64,000 nt of DNA from Bugula neritina (Eukaryota; Bryozoa; Gymnolaemata; Cheilostomatida; Bugulidae): positions 4,755,662 to 4,819,661 of the forward strand of contig OZ037770.1 of assembly GCA_964035545.1 (NCBI GenBank), written 5' to 3'. The notes beneath the pieces were generated by a model. That model did not search any database. It saw only the letters and a list, made by a program, of their open reading frames with translations, and had not been told where the DNA came from. The position numbers and the translations under genes are program-made. Below, in pieces: positions 21,717 through 59,591 of this stretch. Positions within the stretch are counted from its first letter, which is position 1; each line of letters opens with the position of its first letter.

Positions 21717-21736
21717 GATCCCACCGCTGCCACCAC

Positions 21737-27968: not shown

Positions 27969-28874
27969 ATGGCTCCAGGGGGTGAGGAGGCGACCCCTGG
28001 AGCAGCCGCGACACCAACCCTCACTGTGGAGGCTTTGGTGACAGCCCTCCGACAGTTGCAGGGGACAGGGCAGGCGCCACCTGGTGACAGGTACCGCCTC
28101 AGTCCCCCAACTTTTGGAGGTGATGGGGATGTGGAGCAATTCATCCGGGAGTTCCAGGACGTGGCCACCATCGCTGAATGGCCAGTGCCGGTGCGCGTCC
28201 TCCAACTCCGGGCCTGTTTGACAGGCCGGGCCAAGAGTTTCGCTCTGGGGCCCGATGAAGCACACATCTTACGTGCCCTAAGGGCCAGGTTTGGCATGAC
28301 GTCAGAGGAGGCGTCTGACCGCCTACAGGCCCTGAGAAGGGACAGGAGGACATCGTTGGAGGACCACGCCAACGTGGTGGAACGCTTGGCCCAGGCTGCT
28401 TTCAGCCAGGCTACCGGAACGGAAAGACAGCGCCTGGTGTACAACGCGTTTTTCCGGAGTATAAATCATCCTGACCTCCAACGCTATTGGATGGCTAGCA
28501 AGGTGGGCAGCCTGGACGAAGCTCTGGAAACGGGTAAAGCCTATTTCCAGGTAGAGGAGCTTCAGGGACCAAGATTCGCCGCCCGCCAGGTTGTCGATGA
28601 GGAGACCGCCCTGCCTGCTAAACCCCAAGTAGCGGCCGCAGCAACTAAATCACTCGAGCAGACGCAGCTCACCATGTTAATGGACATGATGAAAGGCCTG
28701 CAGGCTACAGTGACGAAGTTGCAGAGCGAACAGGCGGATAGGCGGGCTCCCCGTTCGCGGGACAACCCTGTCCGCCCATCTCTGCTAACCTGTTGGGGGT
28801 GCGGGGTGCAAGGGCATGTGAGGAGGCACTGCCCTAGAGGCCAAGGGCCTTTAAACACCCAAGGCTCACGGTAA
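27969..28874 (+). CDS. gag: Element 3 Gag
   Basis: 301 codons from ATG 27,969. Capsid-like central part (LSPPTFGGDGDVEQFIREFQ, LRARFGMTSEEASDRLQALR), a helix-rich stretch (TMLMDMMKGLQATVTKLQSE), then one CCHC knuckle CWGCGVQGHVRRHC. It should form the particle and bind element RNA. Its 3' end overlaps the pol frame by 36 nt and carries the slippery site. Confidence 0.92.
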   Translation: MAPGGEEATPGAAATPTLTVEALVTALRQLQGTGQAPPGDRYRLSPPTFGGDGDVEQFIREFQDVATIAEWPVPVRVLQLRACLTGRAKSFALGPDEAHILRALRARFGMTSEEASDRLQALRRDRRTSLEDHANVVERLAQAAFSQATGTERQRLVYNAFFRSINHPDLQRYWMASKVGSLDEALETGKAYFQVEELQGPRFAARQVVDEETALPAKPQVAAAATKSLEQTQLTMLMDMMKGLQATVTKLQSEQADRRAPRSRDNPVRPSLLTCWGCGVQGHVRRHCPRGQGPLNTQGSR

Positions 28875-38328: not shown

Positions 38329-38341
38329 ATGGCAACAGCTG
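38329..38341 (+). CDS. ROCO-caspase gene, first coding exon
   Basis: ATG GCA ACA GCT G before GTGAGT: four codons and one base. The G joins AA of the next exon as Glu. It is chosen because the ATG sits in a good context (AACCATGG) and the donor is strong; an upstream non-coding part is likely. With so little sequence it could be a chance fit. Confidence 0.5.
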
Positions 38342-38614
38342 GTGAGTAAATTTGATAACAACTTTATTCCCTTATTTCTTGAAAAGTAGAAATATTTAAA
38401 CTCTGAAGAAATGTTGATATTATGCCACCACCAATTAATATATATATATGGATAATTTTCTTTATGTAAAAATTTGAATAATCGGTATGCTTCATAGATT
38501 TTATTTATTTTTAGTCTAACACCTGAGGAGTGCAGTTTACTGCACGAAACTATATAGTCGTGTAAGATTTTTTAAAAAAATATATATGTATCATTAACAA
38601 TCTGAACACACTAC

Positions 38615-38665
<51 letters not shown>

Positions 38666-41600
38666 CTATAAAACTATTTTATTATCACTACTACATATAA
38701 TACTGTTTTATGTCACTAATTAGCGTAATACTTTGAAAATAGTAAAATAGATAAAATTACGCAAGCAGCTGGGTTAGAGTTGTCTTATCTCAACACAATA
38801 AACACTGAACTATAAACTATACATTAAATGATTATTTAGAAAGAATATAAAGCTATCCAATAAAATATATGTTACTCATGGTTATGACTACTGAAATCCA
38901 CCATATAATGAATTTATTCAATCAGTAGATGACAGGTGTCAGAATGATAGACACCACCTGCTAGCACTGTGTAATAATTGAACTGTCACTGTTTTTGTAT
39001 GATGTTACAGAAAATATGGAAATCTGGTTCAGACATTCTGGACAGTCTCCTGTAAGCTGGTGGGATGTATGGTCTGCTGATACCAAGTCATATACTACTG
39101 CTGAGGTGAAACGTGAAGTTGGGAGTTATAATATCACAGATTTGAAACTGGAAGAGAAAATTCCAAGTAACATTGGAGAGATTGCTGGTGAAGCCCTGCG
39201 TCTATGTGTTTCTAACCTGACTGACAGAGCAAGTCTAGACAAGTGAGTGTCTACTAAAATAGCAGTGTAAATGTTAAATGATAATGGATAATATATGCTG
39301 AAGCTGAAGGATATTTTTGCTCAGAATATATTCATACAATATAATATACATCAACATAGTAATATGTGCAACATTGTATGTAATCTAAGTGAGGTTATAG
39401 TTGTAGGAATTAAGGAGTGTAAAACTGCCTGTACTGTTATTTGATTATAGTATTGAATAAATCATGTTTCATGTAGCTAAAAACTGAAGTAATGTACAGT
39501 TTACAATATATTATACAAAAAATTATGTTTTGTCGTTAACTGCAAATATACAATATTAAACATTGGTTGATATATTAACTCACATAGGGTTGTAGAGTGA
39601 GGCCTTATGTACTATAAACTAACAGCTAACCTTGCATAATGAAGCTTCCTCTCCTCACCTACAACATAATATAACTGAATCTCTTAGCTGTTTTTTGCAG
39701 CAATATATCTGTTTCCTGCATGTTTTTTTTGTTAAATACACAAGTAGCATGATATATTAGTATATATTATTTTGATATGGTAGACATAAATAAATGAGAC
39801 ACTTTATATATTACAGTCTATGTCAGCTGACTCAGTTAGAGAGACTAGACATGGAATGGAATCCTCTCAACACAGTACCAGAAGTTGTGTCATCACTCAC
39901 ATCACTTAAAGAGTTGGATATGGGGAGCTGTAGATTATCTACTCTACCTGAGAGGTTTCTGTGTCACAGTCTCTCTTGTTTAAAACACTCAAAGATTCAC
40001 ATGTTGATATAATGCTTACGAAGTATTGCTAATTAGTATGTCACTATGTATTGTTGAAAAGCATAGAGCTATAAATTACAATTTTCTTGAAGCTATATGA
40101 TATTAGAATTTCTCAAAACTTGAAAATATTTTAAATATGTTTCAGTTATCTGGCATTACATTTCCTTTTGCTATAAAACTTTCTTCAACAAATACTATAG
40201 CACCCACTTGTAGTTTACTAGAATCTATTTCTTATTAAACGCTTATTAGCGTTCGGTATTTTGCTTTGAATTTGCTTTGTTGCAATAAATTTGTTTCTTG
40301 AATATTTTACCTGATTGAATACACAAGTATAGTATATACAGTATATAATAACATCCTGATACAGTGGATTATATATATTATGCACTTTATATTACAGTCT
40401 ATGTCAGCTGACTCAGTTAGAGAAACTAGACATAGGAGATAATCCTCTCAACACAGTACCAGAAGTTGTGCCATCACTCACATCACTTAAAGAGTTGTAT
40501 ATGAGGAACTGTGGTTTATCTACTCTACCTCAGAGGTTTGTGTGTCACAATAGTTATTTCTTGTGTATTAAACATTCCATATTTCACTTCTTTAATGCTT
40601 CTCAAGTAGTGTTATGCTATGATATCATATATTGCCAACGTATGTTAAAATACCTGAATATGCATTTTCGAACTTGTCCAATAGTTTGTGCTAAGGTGGA
40701 AATAATACAGCATTATGGTATGCCATTGTATATCCTTATATCACAAGAACCTTTTGTAATGAATAATAAAACAGCCATCTGCAGTTTACTGGCAATCATG
40801 GTAATAATCGAATCTTTCTTAGCTTCTTGCGTCTAGCACTTTGACTATCCATTACCGGAATGAATTTTTTTTCTGCATTTTTACTTGGTTGACTGTGCTT
40901 AGCAATAAAACATGTACAGTGTATATTATTATGACACAGGAGACTACATATATCATACCCGTTATAATTATTGCAGTCTATGCCAGCTGACTCAGTTAGA
41001 GAAACTAAACTTAAGAGGAAATCCTCTCAACACAGTACCAGAAGTTGTGTCATCATTCACATCACTTAAAGAGTTGGATATGGGGAGCTGTAGATTATCT
41101 ACTCTACCTAAGAGGTTTCTGTGTCGCAGTCTTTCTTGTTTAAAACACTCAATGATTCACATGTTGATATAATGCTTACCAAGTATTGCTAATTAGTATG
41201 TCACTGTGTATTGTTGAAAAGCATAAAGCTATAAATTACAATTTTCTTGAAGCTATATGATATTAGAATTTCTCAAAACTTGAAAATATTGTAAATATGT
41301 TTCAGTTAGCTGGCATAACATTTCCTATTGCTATAAAACCTTCTTCAACAAACACTATAGCACCCACTTGTAGTTTACTAGAATCTATTTCTTATTAAAC
41401 GCTTATTAGCTTTCGGTATTTCACTTTGAATTTGGTTTGTTGGAATAAATTTGTTTCTTGAATATTTTACCTGATTGAATACACAAGTAGTATATACTAT
41501 TATCATGATACAGTGGATTAAACATAATATAACACACTTTATATTACAGTCTATGTCAGCTGACTCAGTTAGAGAAACTGGACATGGGATGTAATCCTCT

Positions 41601-44600
41601 CCATACAGTACCAGAAGTTGTGTCATCACTCACATCAATTAAGGAGTTGGATATGTGGAGATGTGAATTATCTATTCTACCTGGGAGGTTTGTATTGCAC
41701 AATATTATCTCTGTTTCAAACATTCAATATTTCACTTCTTTAATGCTTATCAAGTAGTGTTATGCTATATATTATCATATATTGCCAACGTATGTTAAAA
41801 TACCTATAGATATGCATTTTCGAACTTGTCCAATAGTTTGTGCTAAGGTGGAAATAATACAGCATTATGGTATGCTATTGTATATCCTTATAACACAAGA
41901 ACCTTTTGTAATGAATAATAAAACAGCCATCTGCAGTTTACTGGCAATCATGGTAATAATCGAATCTTTCTTAGCTTCTTGCGTCAAGCACTTTGACTAT
42001 CCATTACCGGAATGAATTTTTTTTCTGCATTTTTTACCTGGCTGACTGTGCTTAGCAATATAACATGTACAGTGTATATTATTATGACACAGTAGACTAC
42101 ATATATCATACCCTTTATAATTATTGCAGTCTATGCCAGCTGACTCAGTTAGAGAAACTAGACATAAGATGGAATCCTCTCAACACAGTACCAGAAGTTG
42201 CGTCATCATTCACATCACTTAAAGAGCTGGATATGTGGAACTGTAAAATATTAACTTTACCTGAGAGGTTTGTGGAACACAGTCTTTCTTGTTTCAAACA
42301 CTTAATAATTCACAGTTTGATATAATTGTAAACTATCATCCCTGGTTTGTAAACAGGCACAATGTGGTCTTCAGTCTCTACTGATGTTTTATTGGTAAAA
42401 CTGTCGTGAAAACTACAATTGATGAAATTGTGAATTTGCCATAATGAATGATAATATGTGATAAAACTTTCATCAGTGGTAATTTGACACTAACTAATAA
42501 GCTTCAAGTAAAGAACAAGTATTGCTATAAAAATCAGTATACACCATCCAAGTTATTAAAATTGATATTAAAAAAGATAATACAAATGCCATAAATGATT
42601 GTCAAAAATACTACAATAACAACAATCACCTTGTTAGACCATCCGGGAATGGAGCTTATAACTTTGATGTTAATGTAGTAGGTAAATATTTTCTACTTTG
42701 ATAATATTGATTTAAATGCAACAAAATATTTAACATAACAAGTGAAAAGTTACTCAGCAGTTTATGCTACATGTTAGCTGACTAAAAGTGTAGCATAGAA
42801 CGAGAGCTGAGAGTAAAATATTCTTTAATGAATGAGTCATTTCAGGAAGCTGATGGTGTAAAAAGCTATTTATATATCTTAGTCATAGCGAAATCATACA
42901 CATGAGGAAATCATGTTGACTTTCGTGTGCAAATTTGTCATAGCCATAAAAGCAAAACAGCTACATATAAATGACTAATGCAATGGTTTTCTAATTATAG
43001 GCACGTTGGTTAACTTTGTTTGTTTTGATGAGAGCAAAAAATTTTACTGGCATTCCAATTAATTACAATAATGCTTACCAAGTATTGTCAATTAGTATGT
43101 CACTATGTATTGTTGAAAAGCATAAAGCTATAAATTACATATTTCTTGAGGCTATATGATATTAGAGTTTCTGAAAACTTGAAAATAAATATGTTTCAGT
43201 TATCTGGCATTACATTTTCTATTACTATGAAACCTTCTCCAACAAACACTATAGCACCCACTTGTAGTTTACTAGAATCTAGTTCACATTAAATGCTTAT
43301 TAGGTTTCGGTATTTCACTTTGAATTTGCTTTGTTGCAATAAATATGTTTCTTGGATATTTTACCTGATTGAATACACAAGTGGTATACACTATTATCAT
43401 GATACAGTGGATTAAACACATAACACACTTTATATTACAGCCTGTGTAAGCTGACTCAGTTAGAGACACTATACATAGGATGGAATCCTCTCAACACAGT
43501 ACCAGAAGTTGTGTCATCACTCACATCACTTAAAGAGTTGGATATGTGGTACTGTGAATTATCTACTCTACCTGGGAGGTTTGTATTGCACAATATTATC
43601 TCTGTTTCAAACATTCAATATTTCACTTCTTTAATGCTTATCAAGTAGTGTTATGCTATTTTATTATATATTGCCAACGTATGTTAAAAAACCTATAGAT
43701 ATGCATTTTCGAACTTGTCCAATAGTTTGTGCTAAGGTGGAAATAATACAGCCTCATGGTATGCCATTGTATATCCTTATATCACAAGAACCTTTTGTAA
43801 TGAATAATAAAACAGCCATCTGCAGTTTACTGGCAATCATGGTAATAATCGAATCGTTCTTAGCTTCTTGCGTCAATCACTTTGACTATCCATTACCGGA
43901 ATGAATTTTTTTCTGAACTTTTTACCTGACTGACTGTGCTTAGCAATATAACATGTACAGTGTATATTATTATGACACAGTAGACTACATGTATCTTACC
44001 CTTTATAATTATTGCAGTCTATGCCAGCTGACTCAGTTAGAGAAACTAAACTTAAGAAAGAATCCTCTCTACACAGTACCAGAAGTTGTGTCATCACTCA
44101 CATCACTTAAAGAGTTGGATATGAGGAGCTGTAAATTATCTACTCTACCTGAGAGGTTTATGGAGCACAATTTTTTTTCTTTCAAACACTCAATAATTCA
44201 CATGTTGATATAATGCTTACCAAGTATTGCTAATTAGTATGTCACTATGTATTGTTGAAAAGCATAAAGCTATAAATTACATATTTCTTGAGGCTATATG
44301 ATACTAGAGTTTCTCAAAACTTGAAAATAAATATGTTTCAGTTATCTGGCATTACATTTCCTATTACTATGAAACCTTCTCCAATAAATACTATAGCACT
44401 CGCTTGTAGTTTACTAGAATCTAGTTCGCATTAAATGCTTATTAGGGTTCGGTATTTTACTTTGAATTTGCTTTGTTGCAATAAATTTGTTTCTTGGATA
44501 TTTTACTTGATTGAATACACAAGTAGTATATACTATTATCATGATACAGTGGATTAAACACATAACACACTTTATATTACAGTCTATGTAAGCTGACTCA

Positions 44601-47600
44601 GTTAGAGAAACTAGACATAGGATGGAATCCTCTCAACACAGTACCAGAAGTTGTGTCATCACTCACATCAATTAAAGAGTTGGATATGTGGTGCTGTGAA
44701 TTATCTACTCTACCTGGGAGGTTTGTGTGTCACTACAAATTTTATATCATTTTTAACGTTCAATAATTATTATTTTGTAGGAGAATTTCAGCACAGTAAA
44801 TACTACATTAAGATGTTTATACTTTTTCTCTGCAAACCCCCATACGAATCTTAACGTTTCAGAGGATATTGTCAATTAGCACACTATCAGTTGTATAGTT
44901 GATTATTATTCACACACTGAGTATATATAATAATTGAATACTTGTATGCTATTATAATAAACTGTTAACTTCTCATGCTCTGCATGTAATATGCTACAAT
45001 AAGTTGCTTGGTAGTTGAGTTGTATATAGTTTTACCTGGTTGAAAACAAAATGTGAATATAGTATAAAATATTATAGTAATGCAGACTACATATATATCA
45101 TATACTATATATTACAGTCTATGTCAGCTGACTCAGTTAGAGAAACTGTACATAGGAGCAAATCCTCTCAATACAGTACCAGAAGTTGTGTCATCACTCA
45201 CATCACTTAAAGAGTTGGATATGAGGATATGTGAATTATCTACTCTACCTGGGAGGTTTGTATTGCACAATATTATCTCTGTTTCAAACATTCAATATTT
45301 CACTTCTTTAATGCTTATCAAGTAGTGTTATGCTATTTTATTATATATTGCCAACGTATGTTAAAAAACCTATAGATATGCATTTTCGAACTTGTCCAAT
45401 AGTTTGTGCTAAGGTGGAAATAATACAGCCTCATGGTATGCTATTGTATATCCTTATATCACAAGAACCTTTTGTAATGAATAATAAAACAGCCATCCGC
45501 AGTGTACTGGCAATCATGGTAATAATCGAATCTTTCTTAGCTTCTTGCGTCAATCACTTTGACTATCCATTACTTGAATGAATTTTTTTCTGAACTTTTT
45601 ACCTGGCTGACTGTGCTTAGCAATATAACATGTACAGTGTATATTATTACGACACAGTAGACTACATATATCATACCCTTTATAATTATTGCAGTCTATG
45701 CCAGCTGACTCAGTTAGAGAAACTAAAGTTAAGAGGAAATCCTCTCAACACAGTACCAGAAGTTGTGTCATCACTCACATCACTTAAGGAGTTGGATATG
45801 GGGAGATGTAACTTATCTACTCTACCTCAGAGGTTTGTGGAACACAGTCTTTCTTGTTTCAAACATTCAATAATTCACATGTTGATATAATGCTTACCAA
45901 GTATTGCTAATTAGTATGTCACTATGTATAGTTGAAAAGCATAAAGCTATAAATTACAATTTTCTTGAGGCTATATTGTATTTGAGTTTCTCAAAACTTG
46001 AAAATAAATATGTTTCAGTTTTCTGGCATTACATTTCCTATTGCCATAAAAAGTTCTTCAACAAATACTATAGCACCGCTTGTACTTTACTAGAATCTAT
46101 TTCAGATTAAATGTCTTTTACTTTAAATATGCCTTGTCAAAATAAATTTTTTTTGCATGTTATACCATATTGAATACACCACTGTAGTATACACAGTACA
46201 TAATATTATCCTGATACAGTGGATTGCATATATTATGCACTTTATATTACAGTCTGTGTCAGCTGACTCGGTTAGAAAAACTAGACATAGGATATAATCC
46301 TCTCAACACAGTACCAGAAGTTGTGTCATCACTCACATCACTTAAAGAGTTGTATATGTGGAACTGTAAATTATCTACTCTACCTGGGAGGTTTGTGTGT
46401 TACAATAATTATTTCTTTTGTTTTAAACATTCTATATTTCACTTCTTTAATGCTTCTCAAGTAGTGTTATGCTATGATATCATATATTGCCGACGTATGT
46501 TGAAAAACATAAACATGTATTTTTTTAACTTATCTAGTTGTTTGTCCTAATGTAGAAATAATACAATTTTATAGTGAGCCATTGTATATCCTTATATCAC
46601 AATACTTTTTGTAATCAAAAATAAAGCAGCCCTCTGCAGTTTACTGACAATCATGGTAATAATCGAATCTTTCTTAGCTTCTTGCGTCAAGCACTTTGAC
46701 TATCCATTACTGGAATGAATTTTTTTTCTGCATTTTTTACCTGGCTGACTGTGCTTAGCAATATAGTATGTACAGTGTATATTATTATGACACAGGAGAC
46801 TACATATATCATACCCTTTATAATTATTGCAGTCTATGCCAGCTGACTCAGTTAGAGAAACTAAACTTAAGAAGGAATCCTTTCAACACAATACCAGAAG
46901 TTGTGTCATCACTCACATCACTTAAAGAGTTGAATATGTGGGACTGTAGATTATCTACTCTACCTGAGAGGTTTGTGGAACACAGTCTTTCTTGTTTCAA
47001 ACACTCAATAATTCACATGTTGATAAAATGCTTACCAAGTATTGGGAATTAGTATGTCACTATGTATTGTTGAAAAGCATAAAGTTATAAATTACATATT
47101 TCTTGAGGCTATATTGAATTAGAGTTTCTCATTACTTGAAAATAAATATGTTTCAGTTATCTGTCATTACATTTCCTATTGCTATAAAACTTTTTTAACA
47201 AATATTATAGCATCCACTTGTAGTTTACTATAGTGTGTATTTCTCATTAAATGGTTATTAGAGCCTTCTGTACTTTACTATGAATATGCCTTAGCGTAAT
47301 AAATTTGCTATTTGGATATTTTACTTGATTGAATATGCAGTGTTTGTTATGATACAATAAATTAAATATATCACATACTTCTTATTACAGTCTATGTCAG
47401 CTGACTCAGTTAGAGAAACTAGACATAGAAGGGAATCCTCTCAACACAGTACCAGAAGTTGTGTCATTACTCACATCACTTAAAGAGTTGAATATGGAGA
47501 GATGTAACTTATCTAATCTACCTGAGAGGTTTGTGTGCCACAACGAGTTTTATATATCACTTTTAACATCCAATAATTGTTATTTTGAAGCAGATTTCAA

Positions 47601-50600
47601 CACAGTAAATACTACATTAAGATGTTTATACTTTTTCTCTGCAAACCTACATATGAATCTCATCGTTTCTGGGGATATTGTCAATTAGCACACTATCTAG
47701 AAGTTTCCTCTGCTTCACAAGTTATTTTATAGTATTTCTATATCTTTTTGAATATTTCCCATGATAGGTTGACTGGGCTGTTTTTCAGAAATCGTTTTAT
47801 TAACTCTTTTCATTATATTATAACTATAGCTACTTCTGTACACATAATATTATATTGTTATGGTAACGCAGTTTCTTATCACTGTCTAATTGAATGCACA
47901 AGTGCTATATACAGTACATAATATTATCCTGATACAGTGGATTACATGTATTATGCACTTTATATTACAGTCTATGTCAGGTGACTCAGATAGAGAAACT
48001 AAACATAGGAGATAATCCTCTCTACACAGTACCAGAAGTTGTGTCATCACTCACATCACTTAAAGAGTTGGATATGGAGAGCTGTGGATTACCTACTCTG
48101 CCTGAGAGGTTTGTGGAACACAGTCTTTTTTGTTTCAAAAACTGAATAATTCACATGTTTTTATAATGCTTACCAAGTGTTGTTAATTAATATGTCACTA
48201 TGTATTGTTGAAAAGCATAAAGCTATAAATTGAAAAATTTTCTTGAGTCTATATGATATTAGAGTTTCTAAAAACTTGAAAATAAATATGTTTCAGTTAT
48301 TAGGCATTACATTTCTCAATGCTATAAAGCCTTCTTCAACAAATACCATAGCATCCACTTGTAGTTTACTAGAATCTATTTCATGTTAAATGCTTATCAG
48401 CTTTCAGTATTTTACTTTGAATTTGCTTTATTGCAATAAATTTGTTTCTTGGATATTTTACCTGATTGAATACACAAGTATAGTATATACAGTATATAAT
48501 AATATCCTGATACAGTAGATTACATATATTATGCACTTTATATTACAGTCTGTGTCAGCTGATTCAGTTAGAGAAACTAAACATAGCATGGAATCTTCTC
48601 AAAACAGTACCAGAAGTTTTGTCATCACTCACATCACTTAAAGAGTTGAATATGAACAACTGTAAATTATCTACTCTACCTGAGAGGTTTGTTTGTCACT
48701 ACAAATTTTATATCATTTTCAACATTCAATAATTATTATTTTGTAGCATAATTTCATCACAGTAAATACTACATTAAGATGTTTATACTTTTTTTCTGCA
48801 AACCTCCATATGAATCTTACCGTTTCTGGGGATATTGTTAATTAGCACGCTATCTAGAAATTTCCCGACTTCACAAATAAATTTTTAGTCTTCCAATATC
48901 TTTTCTGAAATGCTTCCCATAATAGGTTGACTGGGCTTTTCTTCAGAAATCGTTTTATCAACTCTTTTCATTATATTATAATGATAGCTACTTCTGTACA
49001 CATAATTGGTATATATTGTAGTAATTTTGGTAATTACTGGTTTTGTGGGCTTCTAGCGAGCAATATATTTATATTATCTTCCAATAATATCACGGCTTGT
49101 AACAGGAATGAATGATTTATTTATACACAATAAAAGTAGTAGCAAAACGATAAATCCGGTATCACTGGTAAAAATATACATCTATCTTACACTAACTAGC
49201 CATCATACTCTGAGTATGGCTGCTATCTACATCCAGCGCCCTCTGCGCATCGCTGGGGCTCTCATGTGACAGATATATGATTGGCTGGGGAGCGCGTGGG
49301 ATAACATACTACACTCCCCACTACACTGCCTCTCCCAGCAGGAAGCCCACCTTCCTGATAATACCAAAATAAAAAATTAAAATAACAACAAAAAAACAAT
49401 AAGATATCTGCATCACAAGATCAAAAAATGTATACTTAGGCCAACGGCCTATTAAAAAAAAATCTTGTTAAAATATAAAAATTATGTACTATAAAACTAA
49501 GAGATTGTATATGTACCAAGAGCCTCTGGTCTGGCACCAAGAGATATGATGTGTAGAGAGACGGTAAGTGAGGCACCACCTGCGGCGCAGATCAGGAGGA
49601 CAGCTGGATGGAGTTAGGGACGGGGAAATAGAAAGGGAAGGAGAACGTCATCCATGACACGTGTCGGGGCAATGTGGAGGGTAGACACTCAGTCTTCATC
49701 ATCCCTCTTGAGCTGGGCCACATAGTCCCGGAGAGCCTTGAGTTCAGAAGCGGCGGCTGATATCCTAGGCGCCAACCGCTTGATCTCCCTCTCTCTAGTT
49801 CATGCATCCGTTGCTCCATCTCTCTTAGATTTCTAGCAACAGAGGAGTGGCGGTTGGGGGATGAAGATTGCTAACGCCGGCGTCATCTCTGGGGGATTTC
49901 TATCCGTTGTACGACTACTACGGGTACGGTGTTGGAAAAGGGCACAGTGTGAGCAGGGGGTGACGGGCGAGGTATTGTGAGCTTCCTAAACCCAGGGGAT
50001 TTGGGGCAGGGTCCTTGGGTAATGGTACGGGGAGCGGGGAATTTTTGGCTCAGCCGTTTGTAACGTGCAGGGTCTGAAATGAATGGCTTGGTGAGGCCTA
50101 GAAAAGTAGAGAAGGAAAGCTTGTTCACATTGTAGAGATGTCCAGTGTGACACTCCATAGTCCTCTGGTAACGGAGGATGTAGTCCCTGTGGTAGCTGTA
50201 CTCCCCACAGGGACAGAAGGTGGTGATGAAATGTTGAGGGATGTGTACTCGGAGGCGGCGAGGTGTGGTAAAATGCTGTTGACAAAGCCGGCAGGTGGTG
50301 CAGTCGTCGTCTCCTTTATTTTGTTGAATCATGTCCTCGGTATGTTGGGTAACCCAGCTAGACCGGGTTATGAGTATTTCTGGTAGTGTTGTGGAGGTAG
50401 GTTCCGTCTCCTAAGCCATCTCCAATGGTGGCATATCATTGTAGTTAGGAGAGCGAGTGGTACCTGAAAGAGCAGAATTATTGTTGGATCGAATTTGATC
50501 TTTACAGCATAATTCTGATGACAATCGACTGTTACTAGTCTGAGAGTCATGCATCTTTTTGTACGGCACTCGAGAGACTGTGTTTGGATGCCTAGACTGA

Positions 50601-53600
50601 CTGAGAAACATAGTGACATGGCTGGAACTGTTTGCCCCGGGCGCATTAATTCCACCTACTACTCCGCCCTCGCAAAAAATGATATTTTCGTGGTGTTTAC
50701 AACTCCCACGTTTCGCTGCCAGTCTCTCCGTACGGCACTCAGCTTGGCCTTCATATCTGCCGCTTGTAACACAGTCACATACGAAGTCTTTCAAATATGC
50801 TGGGGGTTGCCTAGTACGTTGTCCACTTTCTAAGGGAAGTGGTGTGCTAGTTGGGGGAGATGGTGTAGTCACTGCTGGTGGGGGTGTACTCACTGGTGGA
50901 CTTTTATGTTCCGCCGGTGGCGTTTTCGGCCTGCTATTGACTGTTGTATCATTTTCAAGATCTCCAGATGGAGCCCTCCCCTGGGGGGGTTATGCACTTC
51001 CGGAGCTGAAACAGGTTCCGGAAGTGGTGGCGTTAGACTTGGCGCTGGAGGTGGTGGGCGCACTTTTGGTAACGCAAGTGGCCTTTCCTGCCTCACCAAG
51101 TCTTCTGCCCGCGGCATGATCACTTCATACTCTGGTTCAGGTCGCCGCCGCCCGCGCGTTGCTGTCTGCCTCCTGGGCTCTAACAACGGGGGAGCTTTTC
51201 CTGCCGCACCTGGGCTAGTCCAATACGACTTCAAGCGAGCCTCATTTTAGATAGACACCTGTCCTGAGCGCTCAAACTTGTAGGTGTGATTGGGCATCAC
51301 TTCAACTACCGCGTAGGGTCTCACGAACTTAGGCTGTAGCTTAGCCGCCTGTTCTCGATGCCTACGGCAGTTGACCATTCAGACCCAGTCTCCAACTTGG
51401 TAGAGGGGTGGTTCTTCGGAGTCTTCTTTTTGCACTTGCCACTGCTTTTTCCGCAGTATTTCGTGTGCAACCTTCATTTGCTCTACCGATTTGCTGGCAT
51501 ACCCAAATCCCAAACCCCAAATCCTGGGGGGGTAACCCAGTCTTCCACAGCTCGTACTCTTTCAGGATCAGTCGCCACGCCATGACGGCCGACGTGGTGC
51601 CCCAGGTACTTCACCTCCAGCTGCAAGAGAGCGCTCTTGGAAGGTTTGAGCTTCAGGCCGGCACCTCTGAGTCATTCGAACATCTCCTGCATATGACTGA
51701 CGTGTGTCTGGAAATCCGGGAAAATCACAATGACAACATCGAGGTAGACTAGCAGTGTCTCCCAGTGGAGCCCACTGAGGACCTGTTCCATGAGCCTCTG
51801 AAACGTGGCGGGGGCGGAGGTCAACCCAAAGGGTAGTACTTTCCACTTCCACAGTCCGTTCCATGTGATGAACGCCGTCTTCTCCTGGGCGTCGGGAGTC
51901 AGAGGGACCTGCCAATAACCGCTCAGCAAGTTTAGTGTGCTAAAGTACTTGCTGCCGGCCAGGGCGTCCAGAGATTCATCAATCCGAGGTAGAGGGTAGG
52001 CGTCCTGTATGCTTACGCTATTTAGTTTGCGGTAATCCACACAGAACCACCAACTGCCGTTTTTCTTCCGGACCAGGACGACCGGCGAGCTCCACGCACT
52101 ATGTGCTGGCTCTATGAGGCCGCGGTCCAAAAGATCCCGGACTTGTCGGCTGACCTCCTTTTCTTCATTAGTAAAAAATCACTTAGTAGATTATATAGTA
52201 TGTTTGATTTAGGTAATTCAAGTTCTACTTTTATTTATTTTGAAATAAAAGATCTGCCTTTATATTGTAAACCAAAGAAGACAAAAAAAATTATTCAATA
52301 TTGCAACTTTGTTTTTTTTTCATGCTCTTTTTTGGTTATCTATCTCCAATTCTCAGTGTAATAGAAACCAATTTTTATCCTATTCCTGTTCTTAAACAGC
52401 CTGTTAATATATTGTTTCATAATTACTTTACAATTCTAAATTTTGAATTAACTTGCCTTTAAAAATGTAACGTGTTCCTGCAAGATGATGACTTTCCAGA
52501 ATTTTATTCTCTCGTAGTGAAATAATTCACAACTTCTATTTCCTGTCTAGAAACTATAATACATTTATTAGAGCAATTAGTGAGAGGTTGTGGCAGAAGT
52601 ATTTTATTCTACTTGAAATTACTTTAATTAATGGCTTGTGTAGATGTTTCAGAGCTCTACTGTGTTCCTATTTGATGATAAATTGCATGTATTATGACAC
52701 ATATAAAACAATATTCCTTATAATTATAACATCCATATAGTAGAATATCAGTGTGAGTAGTTACTCAGTGATCAGAAATGTCAGAAGTATTTTATTTTCA
52801 CTTGACATAACTTTAATGCCTTATGCGGAATATGCCACAAAGCTGTAGCCTACCATGTTCATGTTTGCTGATAACTGTGTTATGGCACATACTAGGAATT
52901 TTCTACTCTGTAGTATAAAATATTACTCTCTCTAGTAGAACAGCAGTGTGAACAGTTACTCAGTTATCTGCCATATAGAAAAAGATGATAGTATTACATG
53001 TAGGTTGTTGTTTTTTATGACAGTACTTAGTACAGATGTAGCACTTTTCTTACCAAATATATACTTACAATTATACTGTTATATTATAATATATCTTTAT
53101 AAAATAATTAAAATGTTATGCATCGTATATATATAATATGGTACTTGTACATAATTGTAACTTAGAAATACTTGTTTTCTTTCCTTAATTAATGTACTAA
53201 TTCAAAGTATTGTATATAAACTTGTTATAGTAACTGCCACTTGGTACTATATTATGTGTAATAATTGTTATACTAATATTGGGTATCTTTATGAAAACTA
53301 TTATATCATTTACCTGTATAGCTAGGTCTAATAATAGAAATATTATATATTATTAGAATACAGAGATTAAAGAAGTTACAGAAACTCACAATTTCAGAGA
53401 ATAATTTCACCAGTCTACCTTCTTCAGTATGTGCATTGATTAATCTGCACACACTGGATATATCCAGCAACAGATCCATGACATCTTTGAACCCTGAGAT
53501 ACTACAGCTAACACATCTTGGATCCTTCGATACAGATGGATGTGATGCTCTTACATCTCCTCCACAAGAAGTCTGTGAGAGAGGACTGGAGTCTGTGCGA

Positions 53601-56600
53601 CAATACTACACAGACTTGGCTAAAGGTGCAGGTAGAAATCTTCCATTTGCTACAATAGTGGTGTTGGGGAACACCATGGCAGGTAAAACCAGCCTAATCA
53701 GAACATTACAGAGCACTGACAGGAAGAGAGTTCTGACTGACAGAAGTCCTAATGCAGAGCATGATGAGACCACAAAGGTGTTTAATGTGGAAGAGGTGGA
53801 AGTGAATGGTACAACTCTTCGTCTCATAGATATGGGAGGCCAAGAGGTCTACCATATCACATACCATTTGACACTAAGACAGAATTGTGTACCAGTAGTT
53901 GTAGTCAACATGGAGCAGTATGATCAGATTTCGAAAATGTCTACAGACAGAGAGGCTGTGAGAAAGTTGGCCTTTGACTTCATGTCTCACCTCTATCTCG
54001 CTCATCCATTTCTTGGCCCACCTAAGCTTGTCTTCACACACAAAGATAAGTTTCCGAGTGAAGTTTTTCAACAGCTTCGAAGAAATCTTCTTGAAGTGTC
54101 TGAGCAGTTTTGCAAAAATATTCTTGAAGAAGAGAAAGGTTTAGAAGGTGACTTTGCTCGAATTCAACATTTCACTCAATCAAACGGAAAAGTGTTCTCC
54201 GACGACAACATATATGAAGTTGGAAAATTTGACGAGTACAAGATATTTGAATCGATTAAAAAATCTCTTCTTCAAAGTTGCCGACACTTTATCAAACCCC
54301 TTCCAAAAGTCTGGGAGGATGTCAACACAAAAGTGTTGTCCTTGCAGTCCGCACACAATACCTTTGATGAAATCCTGGCAGAGATGAAGAAAGAACGGAA
54401 TGATATTGATAGAAACCAATTGGATACCATCATCATGTACATGCATGATTGTGGAAAAGTTCTCTGGTATAAGAATGTTGATGCACTCAGGCCATACATA
54501 TTTCACAAGATTACAGAAGTTACCAAACTGCTGTGTGTCTTGTATCACCATGATCCAAACATCTGGCAGAGCAGAGTAGATCAGTTCAAACCATATTTTT
54601 CAAGAGGAGTGAGAATTGAGAAGCAGGACTTTGAAGAGTCTGTGAACTACTTCCAAGCAACTGGCCTAATGATGCAATCCCTTCTTGAATATCTGATAGC
54701 TCAGGAAACTTTATTTAGAAATCCGGGTGATGTTGAAATTGGGCTTTGTTTGCTCAGCACGTTCCGTTTGTTGTATGGCCCTAGGAATGATGAATCCTAT
54801 GATTCCTACTTCATAATCCCTCAGTTTGCCAAAGAATCTTACAGCCTCTCCTACACTCAACAAAAGGAGTTACTGCTTCATACTGAGACTCAGTTTAATG
54901 GTCTGGCATTACCGCAGCATGTCTACCATCAAATGACTGTTGGTTTGTTAGAGATGTTTTCTAAAGAGTTTGCTACAATGCAAGTGAAGAGGAATGGTGC
55001 TAACGTCTACCAAGATGAAATATACACACAACTGGTACACGATTACGCATTGAGAAGAGTTTTACTCTACGTTTCATCTGATGCGTCCAACATTTCCAGA
55101 ATGTGGGAGAATCTCATTTCGGTCAACAACAACATCCTCAGACATGTTATGGAGACTTGGACTGCTAGTCGACCAGTCACTGCCTGCATTTGTGCTCACT
55201 GCTTGCTACTTGGGGTTTCCTGTCCTAAAAAACTCTTTCACCCCAAATGGTGTCTTCGATCCTTAAAAAACCTGCTGCCACCTAATGTCAAGAAGTGTGG
55301 TGGAGCTTCAAAGATGTTATGTAATGGAGAGGAGGTCCCTAGCGCTTTAATCCACCCATGTATGTTCACTCATAAAATTGAATTTCAACAGAAATATTTT
55401 CAATAATTGTTTCAACAGATAAATATTTACTACTTTGTGTTGCAAAAAACTTTTAGTAAAAATTTTGAGCAATTAGTTGAATATTTTGTCTTAATTATAA
55501 AATCGCAACTTAAAAGCATGAGCTCCTATTCACATGTCATTATCTCGTAAATTAAATTCTTTAAGGTTTAGTAATACAAATCTTGTTTGTTCTATTCAGG
55601 TGAGAAATTGTCAGAAACAGAATCAAATAAGTTGAAGAAGCTAGTTGCTGAGCTCAAACTGCGAGGAGATCAGAACAATTCAACTGGTAAATTTTTTTAG
55701 ACTGAACTTGATGTGGGTCATTTTACTTAATTTAGTACAGGAGTATGACCTGTGTCATGAACACACCTAAATAATCAAACCTACTCCTAATTTTGCTTGA
55801 TTTCCCATGTTTTTTCCTAATTATTCAGCTACTTTTGACTGCAGACTGTCATGAAAAAACCATATTTCTCTGAAATCAAAAGTAGCTGAATAATTAGGAA
55901 AAAATATGGGAAATTAAGCAAAATTTAGAAGAACCTTGATTTTTTAGGTGTGTTCATTTAAGCTTTACTACTTTTGGGCAAAACTCATGTTCATTAGCAG
56001 CTAAAATGTAAAAAAATAGCTAAAAACAGGTGTGTTCATCACTTTTGGGCAAAAACTTATGTTAATTAGCAGTTAAATTGTAAAAAATAGCTAAAAACTG
56101 GAGATTTCCAGTGTGCACTAAATTAAGTAAAATGACCTATGTGTACAGCCACCACTTGATAAAACTCCTTGTTTTGCAAAGCTGGCCATACATGTAGATA
56201 TCTAAGAGCTTTTTTATGCATGCGTTCATTGTAATCCATTGCTTTTTGCTGCTAGTGGTTGAGAAAAATTTTAATTGTATGGCTTTTAAATGATGAAAAA
56301 AATCAACTGTTCACATGACTGTCTAGAAATATTAGCTGATGATCTGAGTGATCTCTCTGAAGATGATGACAATCTGTACCTTGATGGAGAGAATGGGGAA
56401 GGCCTGAAGCTGATACAACTTGAATTGAAGCCAACCACCAACCCAAAGATAAAGCAGTTGTTCTCAGATACTGACAAGGTGAATGTTTAATCAGTTGATG
56501 AATATACGTCTATAGACTCTTTTTACTAGATAATCATGACTATAGTCGTTCAATTACTTTTAGAAAAAGTTCAATCTGAACGCAATTTTTCCATTTACTT

Positions 56601-59591
56601 CAGTTAACTTTTAATTTTTAGCCATGTCTGTTTTTGGGCTGTGTCTGTTTGGTTAAGGTTTAATCTGTTGTCACACGGTTAGGAAATATTTGTAGTGTCG
56701 AGATTTCTGGCCCCTTTGATGTATTGATTTGTGCACCTGCATGCATGGTTGAATATTTTCTGCAACATATTCTGATTTTTTTGTGAAGAGTAGCAGTAGT
56801 ATAAACATTATTCCAAAAGATATTGAAGGTCAGATGTAAATAAAGACTAAAAGAGAGGTAGAGAGGTCCGTGGTGTCCTTAAGAAATAAACTGGATGTAG
56901 TGTTAAGATCGCCTATAAGTCTCTGTGGAATAATCTCAGTGGGACAAAATTGTTTTTCGCCTGGAACCTTAAACTTTTCTGTACCTTCGCCATAATTTGC
57001 TATTGCATTCTATGGTATCTTTAAAGTTAGTAAATACTTTGTTGAAGAGGTTTGGCTTTTGAAGTTTAGTTCACATATAATGGTTTAAATGTCAAAATTG
57101 ATGATATCTTGTCAGTATGGCCATGCATTGTCATTATTTACTTCCATAGCTTTACCAATTTATATACTTGATTTAGAAAAATGTAGGATTAATTACAAGC
57201 TATTATCAACAAATCAGAATTAATATACTTGTAGCCTGCTATTGTTTTTTAAACCATACCTCAATGATATTTTTTTATGCTTAACCGACTACCAAATGCA
57301 ATGAACTATTTCGTTAGTAAAATTATCATTCGGTCTGATACATTAAAATTAATTTTATTCTAGTTTATGCTACCCAATTGGCTAATAAAATAAAATCTAA
57401 AATACAAAAAGCAATTGAGATATAAAATGTTTTTTTTCAAAAGTATGTAATTTGACTGGTTTTTTACAAGACTTAAAAATTTAAGACTTGTTTGGAGTTT
57501 GTGAATTACTACTGTATGCAATGCTTTAAGCATATTTGTATCCAGGTGCTCAGTATGACCAGAGAGAGAGGAAGAGCTCTGATAATAAACAACAAAAATT
57601 TTGTTGAAAGACCAGACTTATGCAGGGAAGGTTCAGATGCTGATGTTGAGAACGTGTCTGTCATGTTGAAATCTCTCAAGTTTGATGTTGAGACAAACAC
57701 AGACCTGAAGGCAGAGGTATGTTGTTATGGTTGTTGCTGTTTTCTTTATTTCCATCAAAAAAAAAAAAAAAAAACAAAAGGACAAAAAAATACAAATATA
57801 CAACAGTAACACAAAAAGAGCTAAATTCAATTCAAAAACAATGCGAGCACTATTTAACCATCAACTTGAAAGTTGACACAATGATGGACTGTAACTGTTC
57901 AGTTTATCAATGCCTAAAAATTAGGACTATATAGAAAACCCTAAGCATGTTTGCTGGTCACAATTTTCTTGTTTGCAGGTTGGATAATTATTATTTTATT
58001 CAGTTTTTATAACTTTGTATCAATTGTTGAACATAGTTATTTTCATATTGGTAGGAAATGATGTCTGCTGTAAAGTCTGAGATAAGAATAGAGAAAAACA
58101 ATGGCTTGGGCTGTCAAATACTGGTTATTATGACTCATGGTGGAGAAGATAACTGCATCTATGGAACTGACCTTGAGCAGGTCAACCTTACAGACTTCTA
58201 TGATTTACTCGCTCCTTTGAGTCTGAAGCCTAAACCTACAGTTGTCATCCTACAAGCTTGCAGTGAAGGTAATTACATTTTTGTATAGGAAACTTTCATT
58301 TTTAGTCAAGTAGTGAAAATAATACAGAGACCCTTGAAAAGTTTTTTCTGTACTGATCAAATTTATTTTTTACTCATCACGGTGCAAGTTTGAATGCGTT
58401 TGTTTTTCTTGCAGCAAACATTGATGTTAATCGAGGCAGATCAGATCTTGCAGCAGCTCAAGAAGAAGAAACTGAAGCTGTCTCTTCTACACATTCTGAA
58501 GCTGATTATGATGATATTGTATATCCTGAAACACCCAGTGTGATAAGACCCATCAGACCTGTCTCACCACCAGAATATAGAGTAGAAGAACATATGACAA
58601 GACTGGATATTGATAATCTTCTTGTTCTGAAGAGTAACGTCTGCTGTAAGTATAATAAGAGACAGTGATAGGCTGATATTTCTAAACTGTTGTACTTTGT
58701 CACCTATCTAAAAATTGTTCTTTGCCGTTTTCTTGCGTTACTTCCACATTTTTAATCTTGTTGATTTGATAAGCTTCTAAACTGAGGTGACTAAAATGTT
58801 TTCTAGAACTTTGAGATTTAAATTGTGTTACACTTTAGCTTAAAACATCTTATACTTTGTCTGACTAGACCATGATTTTGGCTGCATTTAATATTATTAT
58901 AGCATCAAAGAGACATCCTGAGTATGGATCTCCCATGATTAGAGTCCTAGTATCTTCAATCTACAAACATGCCTGTCACCGTGATCTCCACACCATCTTT
59001 CAGCAGGTAAGTTGAAAGCTCAAAAGTGTTTTTGCTATTTTAACTTTTATTCAAGAAATAATTTCTCATCATGGCATCTCTTCCATCTCCATGTTCAAAC
59101 CATCATGTCATTTGAAAGAAACAATTTAAGCTGTTCTGAGTACAAGAGAAAGTCATTCAATGTTTTACTTGTTTAAATTGTAGAGTTTAGTTTCTGTTGT
59201 TTCAATTTCTTTAGAGTAATGGCTCAGTACTATATTGATAGTTTCTCTCCTTTTATAATATGTTCTTGTAGTCTGCTATAACAACTAGTTTAATTTATTA
59301 AATGACATGACTGTAGTGGACAACTCCTAAAGTTTTACTACTCAGGATTGTTAAAGTATATTCTAACAGCTGGGAGTTGTACCTTATTTCTTCTAGTAGT
59401 GAATTGATAAACAATCTTACTAGTTCTTACTTACTCTACAGGTACAGACTAAATTAGTGAAGAAACTCTATGCAGATGAAGATTCAGAAAGAAGCAGAAA
59501 TTTGGTTGTAATCTGGAAGACTCTTCCTACCCGTAAAAGACTTTACCTGTTTCCTGGCTTTGATGGGTTGAGTGAAGAGGCCAAATCCTAA
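38329..59591 (+). CDS. LRR-Roc-COR-caspase protein (ROCO family with C-terminal caspase), whole gene
   Basis: Twenty-five exons join in phase into 5,427 nt (1,808 residues plus stop). Order: N-terminal domain (1-81), fifteen LRR exons (about 82-771), two further LRR-like repeats and Roc GTPase (P-loop GNTMAGKT 876-883, DMGGQ 930-934, THKD 999-1,002), COR (HDCGKVLWYKN region), acidic linker (about 1,468-1,519), caspase (from 1,520; His1604, Cys1645) with p20 and p10 parts. ROCO proteins are dimeric GTPases; caspases cut after Asp. The likely role, inferred, is a cytosolic sensor in which ligand binding and GTP state control a built-in protease. There is no signal peptide, membrane segment or kinase. 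I know of no described ROCO protein ending in a caspase. Confidence 0.85.
38342..39010 (+). other. Intron 1 of the ROCO-caspase gene, with a TA microsatellite
   Basis: 38,614-38,663 is a pure (TA)n run. No coding content. Confidence 0.7.
39011..39242 (+). CDS. ROCO-caspase gene, exon 2: N-terminal domain
   Basis: After TGTTACAG it encodes ENMEIWFRHSGQSPVSWWDV, a Tyr/Thr/Lys-rich middle, then LKLEEKIPSNIGEIAGEALR and LCVSNLTDRASLD, ending AA before GTGAGT. The two bases join T of the first LRR exon as Asn. I do not recognise the domain; the last 30 residues look like an LRR cap. Confidence 0.75.
39817..39954 (+). CDS. LRR exon 1 of 15
   Basis: 138 bp, 46 residues, two 23-residue LRRs (LCQLTQLERLDMEWNPLNTV / PEVVSSLTSLKELDMGSCRL). 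Entered after two codon bases and left after two, like all fifteen. Variable residues: D-M-E-W and G-S.R. Confidence 0.88.
40398..40535 (+). CDS. LRR exon 2 of 15
   Basis: Same 138-bp design. Variable residues D-I-G-D in the first repeat, Y-M-R-N.G in the second. Acceptor type A (TATATTACAG). Confidence 0.88.
40977..41114 (+). CDS. LRR exon 3 of 15
   Basis: Variable residues N-L-R-G and D-M-G-S.R. Acceptor type B (ATTATTGCAG) and CTATGCCAG in place of CTATGTCAG. Confidence 0.88.
41550..41687 (+). CDS. LRR exon 4 of 15
   Basis: Variable residues D-M-G-C and D-M-W-R.E. Acceptor type A. Confidence 0.88.
42130..42267 (+). CDS. LRR exon 5 of 15
   Basis: Variable residues D-I-R-W and D-M-W-N.K. 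Acceptor type B. The following intron is longer (to 43,440) and holds about 700 bp not seen in the other introns. Confidence 0.88.
43441..43578 (+). CDS. LRR exon 6 of 15
   Basis: Starts C instead of T, so the junction codon becomes AGC, still Ser. LCKLTQLETLYIGWN...; variable residues Y-I-G-W and D-M-W-Y.E. Acceptor type A. Confidence 0.88.
44018..44155 (+). CDS. LRR exon 7 of 15
   Basis: Variable residues N-L-R-K and D-M-R-S.K. Acceptor type B. Confidence 0.88.
44583..44720 (+). CDS. LRR exon 8 of 15
   Basis: Variable residues D-I-G-W and D-M-W-C.E; LCKLT start as in exon 6. Acceptor type A. Confidence 0.88.
45118..45255 (+). CDS. LRR exon 9 of 15
   Basis: Variable residues Y-I-G-A and D-M-R-I.E. 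Acceptor type A. Confidence 0.88.
45695..45832 (+). CDS. LRR exon 10 of 15
   Basis: Variable residues K-L-R-G and D-M-G-R.N. Acceptor type B. Confidence 0.88.
46253..46390 (+). CDS. LRR exon 11 of 15
   Basis: Variable residues D-I-G-Y and Y-M-W-N.K. Acceptor type A. Confidence 0.88.
46833..46970 (+). CDS. LRR exon 12 of 15
   Basis: Variable residues N-L-R-R and N-M-W-D.R. Acceptor type B. Confidence 0.88.
47391..47528 (+). CDS. LRR exon 13 of 15
   Basis: Variable residues D-I-E-G and N-M-E-R.N. Acceptor CTTATTACAG (type A). Confidence 0.88.
47971..48108 (+). CDS. LRR exon 14 of 15
   Basis: Variable residues N-I-G-D and D-M-E-S.G, plus framework changes (LCQVTQIEKL). Acceptor type A. Confidence 0.87.
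48549..48686 (+). CDS. LRR exon 15 of 15
   Basis: Variable residues N-I-A-W and N-M-N-N.K; framework change NLLKTV. Its intron runs to 53,356 and contains element 4. Confidence 0.87.
49098..49325 (-). repeat. Element 4 3' LTR (boundaries approximate)
   Basis: TGTAACAGG...CCCACTACA, about 228 bp. The right end is fixed by similarity to elements 2 and 5 (CACTACA then polypurine, hairpin). The left end is the best TG available and is less sure. Confidence 0.55.
49339..49357 (-). other. Element 4 hairpin next to the polypurine tract
   Basis: CAGGAAG and CTTCCTG pair across CCCAC, 13 nt from the LTR as in element 2. Where element 2 has AAA/TTT this has GAA/TTC, so pairing is kept. Confidence 0.6.
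49689..49819 (-). pseudogene. Element 4 coiled-coil ORF, frame-broken
   Basis: Starts MEQRMHELE, then changes frame near 49,793 to REIKRLAPRISAAASELKAL and RDYVAQLKRDDED with a stop at 49,689-49,691. It corresponds to the coiled-coil ORF of element 3. Confidence 0.55.
49883..51530 (-). pseudogene. Element 4 integrase end and zinc-finger tail, broken
   Basis: From the high end: KEDSEEPPLYQVGDWVWM and KLQPKFVRPY (integrase C-terminal GPY/F part), SYWTSPGAAGKAPPLLEP, the proline-rich tail, RTRQPPAYLKDFV, GSCKHHENIIFCEGG, VPYKKM, then, after a TAG near 50,412, the fingers CRLCQQHFTTPRRLRVHIPQ and HFITTFCPCGEYSYHRD. The finger part (49,883-50,332) is an intact 149-codon frame. Several frame changes break the rest. 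Confidence 0.7.
51590..52170 (-). pseudogene. Element 4 RT fragment with mutated active site
   Basis: DRGLIEPAHSAWSSPVVLVR, DYRKLNSVSIQDAYPLPRID and LPFGLTSAPATFQRLMEQVL follow the element 3 RT closely. The catalytic YLDD is YLDV, and a stop follows FE at 51,672. Near 51,500-51,530 RT sequence jumps to the integrase C-terminus, so RNase H and the integrase core were deleted. Confidence 0.8.
52171..53356 (+). other. Rest of the intron before the Roc exon, no gene
   Basis: Very AT-rich. A short repeated motif (GTCAGAAGTATTTTATT / GGCAGAAGTATTTTATT near 52,600 and 52,780, each followed by ACTTGA.AT.ACTTTAAT) suggests an old local duplication. Confidence 0.5.
53357..55359 (+). CDS. ROCO-caspase gene: last LRRs, Roc GTPase and COR exon
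   Basis: 2,003 bp after TATTATTAG. The first base completes AGA from the LRR exon. LRRs: LKKLQKLTISENNFTSLPSS and LINLHTLDISSN. Roc: VVLGNTMAGKTSLIRTLQ (G1), DMGGQEVYHITYHLTLRQN (G3 and switch), VFTHKDKF (G4). COR: ILAEMKKERNDIDRNQLDTI, MHDCGKVLWYKN, LRPYIFHKITEVTKLLCVLY, then the COR-C half to about Pro1438. Roc Gly/Lys/Thr and Asp residues for nucleotide binding are all present. The donor is T|GTATGT; the frame running on to a stop at 55,406 would give an unspliced, caspase-less form. Confidence 0.92.
55600..55686 (+). CDS. ROCO-caspase gene, linker exon
   Basis: After TTCTATTCAG: CEKLSETESNKLKKLVAELK, then LRGDQNNST, a short helix. Phase fits on both sides (GT completes TGT; the final G joins AA as Glu). 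Confidence 0.8.
55716..56137. mobile_element. MITE with nested inverted repeat
   Basis: The ends GGTCATTTTACTTAATTTAG and its complement face each other. Inside, 55,759-55,955 is a long inverted repeat (arms about 80-95 bp, GAACACACCTAAA...GCTACTTTTGA). No ORF. The target duplication is unclear (ATGTG near both ends). It lies in the intron between the two linker exons. Confidence 0.65.
56327..56478 (+). CDS. ROCO-caspase gene, acidic linker exon
   Basis: After GACTGTCTAG: ILADDLSDLSEDDDNLYLDG, then ENGEGLKLIQLELKPTTNPK and IKQLFSDTDK, ending on a whole codon before GTGAAT. Many Asp residues precede the caspase, so this could be a site of self-cleavage (inference). Confidence 0.8.
56479..57545 (+). 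other. Intron before the caspase exons, no gene
   Basis: About 1 kb of AT-rich sequence, ending in TTTGTATCCAG. Confidence 0.7.
57546..57716 (+). CDS. ROCO-caspase gene, caspase p20 N-terminal exon
   Basis: 57 codons: VLSMTRERGRALIINNKNFV, then REGSDADVENVSVMLKSLKF and DVETNTDLKAE. This is the start of a caspase fold (RGYALIINNKNF, REGTDxDAExLxxLFxxLGFxV). Donor GAG|GTATGT. Confidence 0.92.
58055..58268 (+). CDS. ROCO-caspase gene, caspase catalytic exon
   Basis: Contains both catalytic residues: LVIMTHGGEDNCIYGTD (His1604; usual form LSHGxxGxIYGTD) and KPTVVILQACSE (Cys1645; usual form QACRG). The exon ends in G before GTAATT; with the next exon the sequence reads QACSEA. Confidence 0.92.
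58415..58645 (+). CDS. ROCO-caspase gene, p20/p10 linker exon
   Basis: ANIDVNRGRSDLAAAQEEET, an acidic Ser/Asp-rich linker (SEADYDDIVYPETPSVIRPI) and DIDNLLVLKSNVC, which matches the start of p10 (DFLLAYSTV). The linker is where caspases are normally cut. Confidence 0.82.
58903..59006 (+). CDS. ROCO-caspase gene, p10 exon
   Basis: SSKRHPEYGSPMIRVLVSSI then YKHACHRDLHTIFQQ. It aligns with the p10 segment SWR...GSWFIQALC...DLLTILTRV, though the two Trp residues are absent. Confidence 0.82.
59442..59591 (+). CDS. ROCO-caspase gene, last exon with stop
   Basis: VQTKLVKKLYADEDSERSRN then LVVIWKTLPTRKRLYLFPGF and DGLSEEAKS, stop TAA at 59,589-59,591. The end RKRLYLFPG matches the caspase C-terminus (TLRKKLYFFPG). 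Confidence 0.87.
   Translation, partial: VQTKLVKKLYADEDSERSRNLVVIWKTLPTRKRLYLFPGFDGLSEEAKS

Follow-up and report, generated by a model that had tools for sequence, protein, structure and literature searches.

The window analysed here, a stretch of 64,000 nucleotides of the Bugula neritina genome, carries on its forward strand a gene of 25 exons (38,329-59,591). Rebuilt base by base, the gene has GT-AG at every border and reads in a single frame of 1,808 amino acids, the sole stop being the terminal one. The matching phases that a sequence-only reading had proposed for these exons are thereby borne out, and the three junctions it had placed ahead of the caspase (55,359/55,600, 55,686/56,327 and 56,478/57,546) proved exact on rebuilding. 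The weakest parts of the model are the 13-base exon 1 and the acceptor of the Roc-COR exon, both picked by frame. The exons, and what each assignment is based on, are as follows.

38,329-38,341, + strand: exon 1, with the start codon (ATGGCAACAGCTG); frame and GT donor
39,011-39,242, + strand: exon 2, an N-terminal domain without a Pfam name; gene model and genome copies
39,817-48,686, + strand: exons 3-17, fifteen LRR exons of 138 bases, phase 2-2, starting at 39,817, 40,398, 40,977, 41,550, 42,130, 43,441, 44,018 and 44,583 (exons 3-10) and at 45,118, 45,695, 46,253, 46,833, 47,391, 47,971 and 48,549 (exons 11-17); splice borders and alignment
53,357-55,359, + strand: exon 18, last LRRs, Roc GTPase and COR; Pfam and profile match
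55,600-55,686, + strand: exon 19, linker; junction 18-19 open in 10 of 10 testable paralogues
56,327-56,478, + strand: exon 20, acidic Asp-rich linker; gene model and dN/dS of exons 19 and 20
57,546-57,716, + strand: exon 21, first part of caspase p20, with the S1-pocket Arg; gene model and alignment
58,055-58,268, + strand: exon 22, second part of p20, with the catalytic His (MTHGG) and Cys (QACSE); alignment
58,415-58,645, + strand: exon 23, linker between p20 and p10 with several Asp; gene model
58,903-59,006, + strand: exon 24, p10; SKRHPEYGS against SWRHPTMGS of caspase-1, a weak match (E 0.018)
59,442-59,591, + strand: exon 25, end of p10 and stop codon; gene model

An AATAAA lies downstream of the stop codon, at 59,818. 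Elsewhere in the window, the start of a decayed Roc-COR exon survives in two pieces (25,816-26,122), 72-73% identical to the gene and with stops in its LRR part. Retrotransposon frames occupy 3,978-7,711 (+), 18,754-21,767 (-), 28,838-34,513 (+) and 51,672-52,178 (-), with Pfam matches to reverse transcriptase, RNase H, integrase, protease or zinc knuckle; the last of them sits inside intron 17, antisense to the gene.

The order of domains, from LRRs through Roc, COR and a linker to a caspase, is as first read, with Pfam recognising Peptidase_C14, Roc and LRR, and COR-A remaining below its cut-off in this copy; the motifs of that reading (GNTMAGKT, DMGGQ, THKD, MTHGG and QAC) are all found in the window copy. 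The Pfam scan spanned the first 220 and the last 1,036 residues; for the LRR exons in the middle, the reading comes from alignment. In the scanned parts, LRR families exceed their cut-offs, Roc scores 30.8-31.6 bits against a cut-off of 27, and COR-A 17.9 bits, under its cut-off of 35.3; NACHT, NB-ARC, CARD and PYD gave no match in these same residues. Profile comparison with four Roco-like proteins from the protein collection (one of them named as that of a Saprospiraceae bacterium) runs from the LRRs through Roc into COR-A at 99.8% probability. Among 28 aligned relatives of the Roc-COR exon, Roc is matched in all, COR-A in 21 (at E 0.01) and COR-B, in the region after COR-A, in just two. The genome holds 23 COR-A matches, of which 12 reach the cut-off, ten of these beside a caspase. 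Over the 21 copies compared, the P-loop pattern is always kept, the G3 pattern (DxxG) is present in 15 and the G4 pattern (THKD-like) in 13, and the divergent copies L011 to L016 have neither of the latter two as written. From these domains, Roc-COR would be expected to act as a GTP switch.

At the caspase end, Peptidase_C14 scores 93.7 bits against a cut-off of 21.4 and covers profile positions 1-213 of 233. In the window copy, the His of MTHGG and the Cys of QACSE align to the catalytic residues of caspase-3 and the S1-pocket residues (in REGSD, QAC and SKRHP) are present; we take the His and Cys to be catalytic here as well, and the Arg, Gln and Arg presumably form the S1 pocket. The p10 part has its best, weak match in caspase-1. 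A search of the protein collection with the caspase returned nine proteins, eight from B. neritina itself (45-80% identity) and one from a snail (E 1e-4). A sponge origin, implied when the sequence-only reading turned to sponge proteomes, is rejected. The catalytic His is kept in 20 of the 21 copies, the Cys in 19 and the first S1 Arg in all. The residue before Ala-Cys, read by eye, is Gln in six copies, Glu in 11, His in two, Leu in one and Val in one, and the second S1 Arg, also by eye, is kept in 11 of the 19 copies that have exon 24. Two copies are without intact catalytic residues: L004, where the Cys has become Ser and the Roc-COR match contains two stops, and L015, where both residues are gone. 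By these residues, most copies look active, though with a variable S1 pocket they need not all cut after Asp. The dN/dS of exons 21 and 22 is 0.13-0.52 (11 pairs). Killing of the cell would be the expected effect of such a domain.

The putative sensor is built of repeated units. Each of the fifteen LRR exons codes for two LRRs and has an AG acceptor and a GT donor; in gap-free comparison their mean identity is 0.89, against 0.50 in the 60 intron bases before and 0.55 in those after. Tandem Repeats Finder has no row for these units, since they recur about every 577 bases and its period limit is 500. Changes concentrate at the exposed strand positions of the LRRs (one in 500 random sets of ten columns was as variable). 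As a domain, the LRRs may be expected to sense ligands. Their pN/pS is 1.26 at the exposed sites, 1.19 in the remainder and 1.45 overall (bootstrap above zero in 251 of 300), and as the exposed sites hardly differ from the rest, positive selection for LRR diversity is unproven by these values.

The gene has many relatives. The genome searched comprises 215.85 Mb in 295 contigs (the published chromosome assembly is 216.00 Mb in 320 scaffolds, PMC11480708), and merging searches with COR-A, Roc and P0039, an annotated B. neritina protein, gave 105 places, 103 of them in open frames of 450 amino acids or more. Of 150 Roc matches, 39 were used, namely those in an open frame of at least that length, and 111 were dropped, some read as other Ras-like GTPases; the C14 matches used were the 150 listed of 176. 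With all counts as lower bounds, 97 of the 103 long Roc-COR frames are followed on their own strand, at no more than 9 kb, by a caspase exon resembling exon 21 or 22, and 73 of them by both. Otherwise, there is one such match upstream and none on the opposite strand, so that chance neighbourhood can be rejected. Among the six other frames, caspase exons are present in divergent form at L015 and L016, and C1:361887 comes with a C14 match. For the remaining three, the nearest caspase exon, found by hand, is also on the same strand, at distances of 10.4, 11.9 and 15.1 kb downstream. The two short-frame COR-A places, C7:4828346 and C7:11451946, have no caspase match nearby. Exon 2 follows the same arrangement: it has 62 genome copies, of which 46 precede a same-strand Roc-COR frame within 30 kb and 55 within 60 kb, and none precedes an opposite-strand frame within 30 kb. 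What looked like an intronless copy of 2,363 amino acids at C1:33884575 was rejected, its open frame being a stretch of N. The best reading of these searches is that the window gene is one intact member of about 100 LRR-Roc-COR-caspase genes of B. neritina. Caspases of this kind may also occur apart: 27 of 123 exon-22-like matches have no Roc-COR frame within 9 kb upstream (e.g., at C2:30.51-30.55 Mb and C9:9.32-9.41 Mb). A CARD match at C6:14148625 lies about 4.7 kb before the caspase match at C6:14153371 on the same strand, and this pair is perhaps an ordinary CARD-caspase.

Twenty loci were fetched for comparison, 17 chosen with a known nearby caspase match and three without, and in all 20, the three picked blindly included, the Roc-COR exon is followed in order by exons 21 and 22. 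Junction 21-22 is open in all 20, as is the AG acceptor of exon 21 present in all; junction 20-21 is open in 17 (three unplaced), 18-19 and 19-20 in 10 (10 unplaced), 23-24 in eight (12 unplaced) and 24-25 in 14 (six unplaced). A script picked these borders by phase and open frame, and their openness is therefore partly built in; this does not apply to the offsets, which are mostly unshifted, to the residues conserved across the junctions or to the exon 18 donor GTATGT, present in 10 of 10. Doubtful picks are the borders of exons 24 and 25 in divergent copies and exon 24 in L005. In the fetched stretches, L001 and L007 yielded neither exon 24 nor exon 25, and L006, L015, L019 and L020 yielded no exon 25, in part because the stretch ends. 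The linker is under constraint, with dN/dS of exons 19 and 20 at 0.00-0.71 and below 1 in all 10 hand-picked pairs (49-78 codons); exon 18 gives 0.15-0.32 (10 pairs). Annotated proteins point the same way: P0039 (460 amino acids) takes in COR, the linker and p20 in that order, and in P0034 the linker is joined to p20; both belong to a gene set predicted by AUGUSTUS with transcriptome hints (PMC7576161). The protein collection yielded no full-length annotated fused protein, and the 27 sequences in it that closely resemble the Roc-COR exon each form a single-exon frame and lack a caspase. Because the linker exons code, the splice phases are conserved and the arrangement repeats about 100 times, a separate caspase gene is unlikely; the proposal of one gene in which the caspase exons are joined to Roc-COR is thus supported, and we are highly confident that LRRs, Roc-COR, linker and caspase form one chain.

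The two ends of this chain seem to have travelled mostly, though not always, together. Roc-COR and caspase distances correlate over the 21 copies (Mantel r 0.70, 0 of 5,000 permutations), as expected for parts inherited together. L006 and L020, however, are 84-89% identical to L007 and L019 in Roc-COR and only 41-42% in p20 where listed; their linker is also very different, and the Roc-COR and caspase trees differ accordingly. Read from these identities, the caspase end is exchanged as a cassette in L006 and L020. L004 and L010 lie on different chromosomes, yet their exons 24 and 25 are identical, exon 23 is 98% identical in DNA and Roc-COR 90% in protein, which points to recent gene conversion or exchange of exons 23-25.

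The best explanation of this architecture, and one we hold with moderate confidence, is that these genes code for one-chain receptors in which Roc-COR controls the pairing of the attached caspases. In an earlier proposal, ROC-COR is a device for dimerisation that depends on nucleotide (PMC4104024), and inflammatory caspases are activated by proximity (PMC10794067). Granted the fused chain, the following mechanism is on the whole probable. The LRRs would bind a ligand, probably microbial or non-self, and the nucleotide state of Roc-COR would then alter the pairing of chains; two caspase domains would meet and be activated by their proximity; they would cut the two Asp-rich stretches, one ahead of p20 and one separating p20 from p10, which are plausible candidate cut sites; and the active caspase so freed would kill the cell or set off some other protease response. 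Neither a CARD or Death domain nor an adaptor would be needed, because Roc-COR and the caspase are joined in one chain.

An immune role for the family rests on analogy. Bryozoans are colonial and sessile, and a one-chain protease receptor could instead serve colony allorecognition, or developmental cell death such as that of polypide regression and metamorphosis, rather than antimicrobial defence; the size of the family and the variety of its LRRs suit allorecognition as well as immunity. Nevertheless, a candidate role in immunity is discussed for LRR-ROCO and ROCO families of other organisms (PMC11378527, PMC4104024), and we consider this alternative rather unlikely. Less likely again is that the gene has two products, the full-length chain and a caspase-less receptor made by retention of intron 18: the Roc-COR frame does continue past the donor to a stop 47 bases on (55,404-55,406), and intron 18 contains an ATTAAA, but the GTATGT donor of exon 18 is conserved in every paralogue whose junction can be placed. 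Such poly(A)-like signals (besides the single ATTAAA of intron 18, another ATTAAA and four AATAAA in intron 20) carry little weight in AT-rich sequence, even if they make shorter transcripts possible. We give still less credence to two neighbouring genes, one for an LRR-ROCO protein and one for a caspase with a promoter of its own, that tandem duplication has kept adjacent. In its favour are the signals within intron 20, the exchanged caspase end of L006 and L020, and a Met four residues into exon 21 in all 21 copies. Yet this Met corresponds to the YKM motif, which we take to be part of ordinary caspases, and separate genes are hard to reconcile with exons 19 and 20 that are coding, conserved and in phase on both sides, with an exon 21 that invariably has its AG acceptor, with P0039 linking COR to p20, and with 97 of 103 frames in the same order. 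That the caspase end is inactive, a decoy or scaffold that cuts nothing, is very improbable as well, as the losses in L004 and L015 and the varying S1 pocket stand against a window copy that retains its His, Cys and pocket residues, the retention of His and Cys in nearly all other copies, and the low dN/dS of exons 21 and 22.

Several known systems resemble the window gene, none of them described in the literature searched as ending in a caspase after Roc-COR. The claim that a ROCO protein ending in a caspase is an architecture unseen in print held within the literature searched, where no description of a Roc-COR-caspase protein was found, all bioRxiv preprints and most subscription papers being outside its scope. 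ROC-COR proteins described in the available text carry kinase, CARD, death or TIR domains, or are plain LRR-ROC-COR (PMC4104024, PMC11378527), and the available part of a further paper names Roco in its reference list alone (PMC8195603). In LRRK1/2, DAPK1, MFHAS1 and the Trichoplax ROCOs, too, COR comes after Roc within a chain of several domains, LRRs frequently among them, and CARD, death and TIR domains are found among the placozoan ones; in the sections available, no caspase domain is mentioned for animal or placozoan ROCOs, whereas the C-terminal domain of the window protein is a protease (PMC4104024). The brown algal LRR-ROCOs have the same LRR-Roc-COR, tandem phase-2 LRR exons and an expanded family of suggested immune receptors. 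They differ, as far as the accessible text goes, in having one LRR per 72-base exon, as opposed to two per 138-base exon in the window gene, and in having LRR-ROC-COR as their sole architecture, to which the window gene adds a terminal caspase (PMC11378527). In the sponge Dysidea avara, the legend of figure 2 lists CASc and COR, once each, among the domains of NLR-annotated proteins; the genes are described as NACHT-LRR, and the text found describes no Roc-COR-caspase (PMC12909245).

In function, a comparison would be with an NLR inflammasome and its caspase, since both have an LRR sensor, a nucleotide switch and a caspase of inflammatory type. The NLR inflammasome, however, uses NACHT or NB-ARC, whereas the window protein has the GTPase Roc and a covalently attached caspase. 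Exon-by-exon searches of the genome, which may miss domains split by introns, gave one match to NACHT, none to NB-ARC, four to CARD and three to gasdermin, and NLRs are likely to be scarce in B. neritina. The three gasdermin matches are possible caspase substrates. As NACHT and NB-ARC are almost undetected, the LRR-Roc-COR-caspases may stand in for NLR inflammasomes.

In conclusion, there is perhaps an even chance that B. neritina has, in the stead of NLRs, a built-in inflammasome of about 100 receptors, each a single chain, whose caspases are paired directly by a GTPase instead of an ATPase, the sensors having been diversified by duplication of LRR exons and the caspase cassettes swapped (as in L006 and L020). 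The pairing of Roc-COR is debated for LRRK2 and its kin, and the attached caspase would be a ready-made reporter of it. If the interpretation is correct, a receptor that activates caspases can be built on a ROCO GTPase, with sensor, switch and protease in one molecule, and would be so in an animal in which NACHT and NB-ARC are almost undetected.
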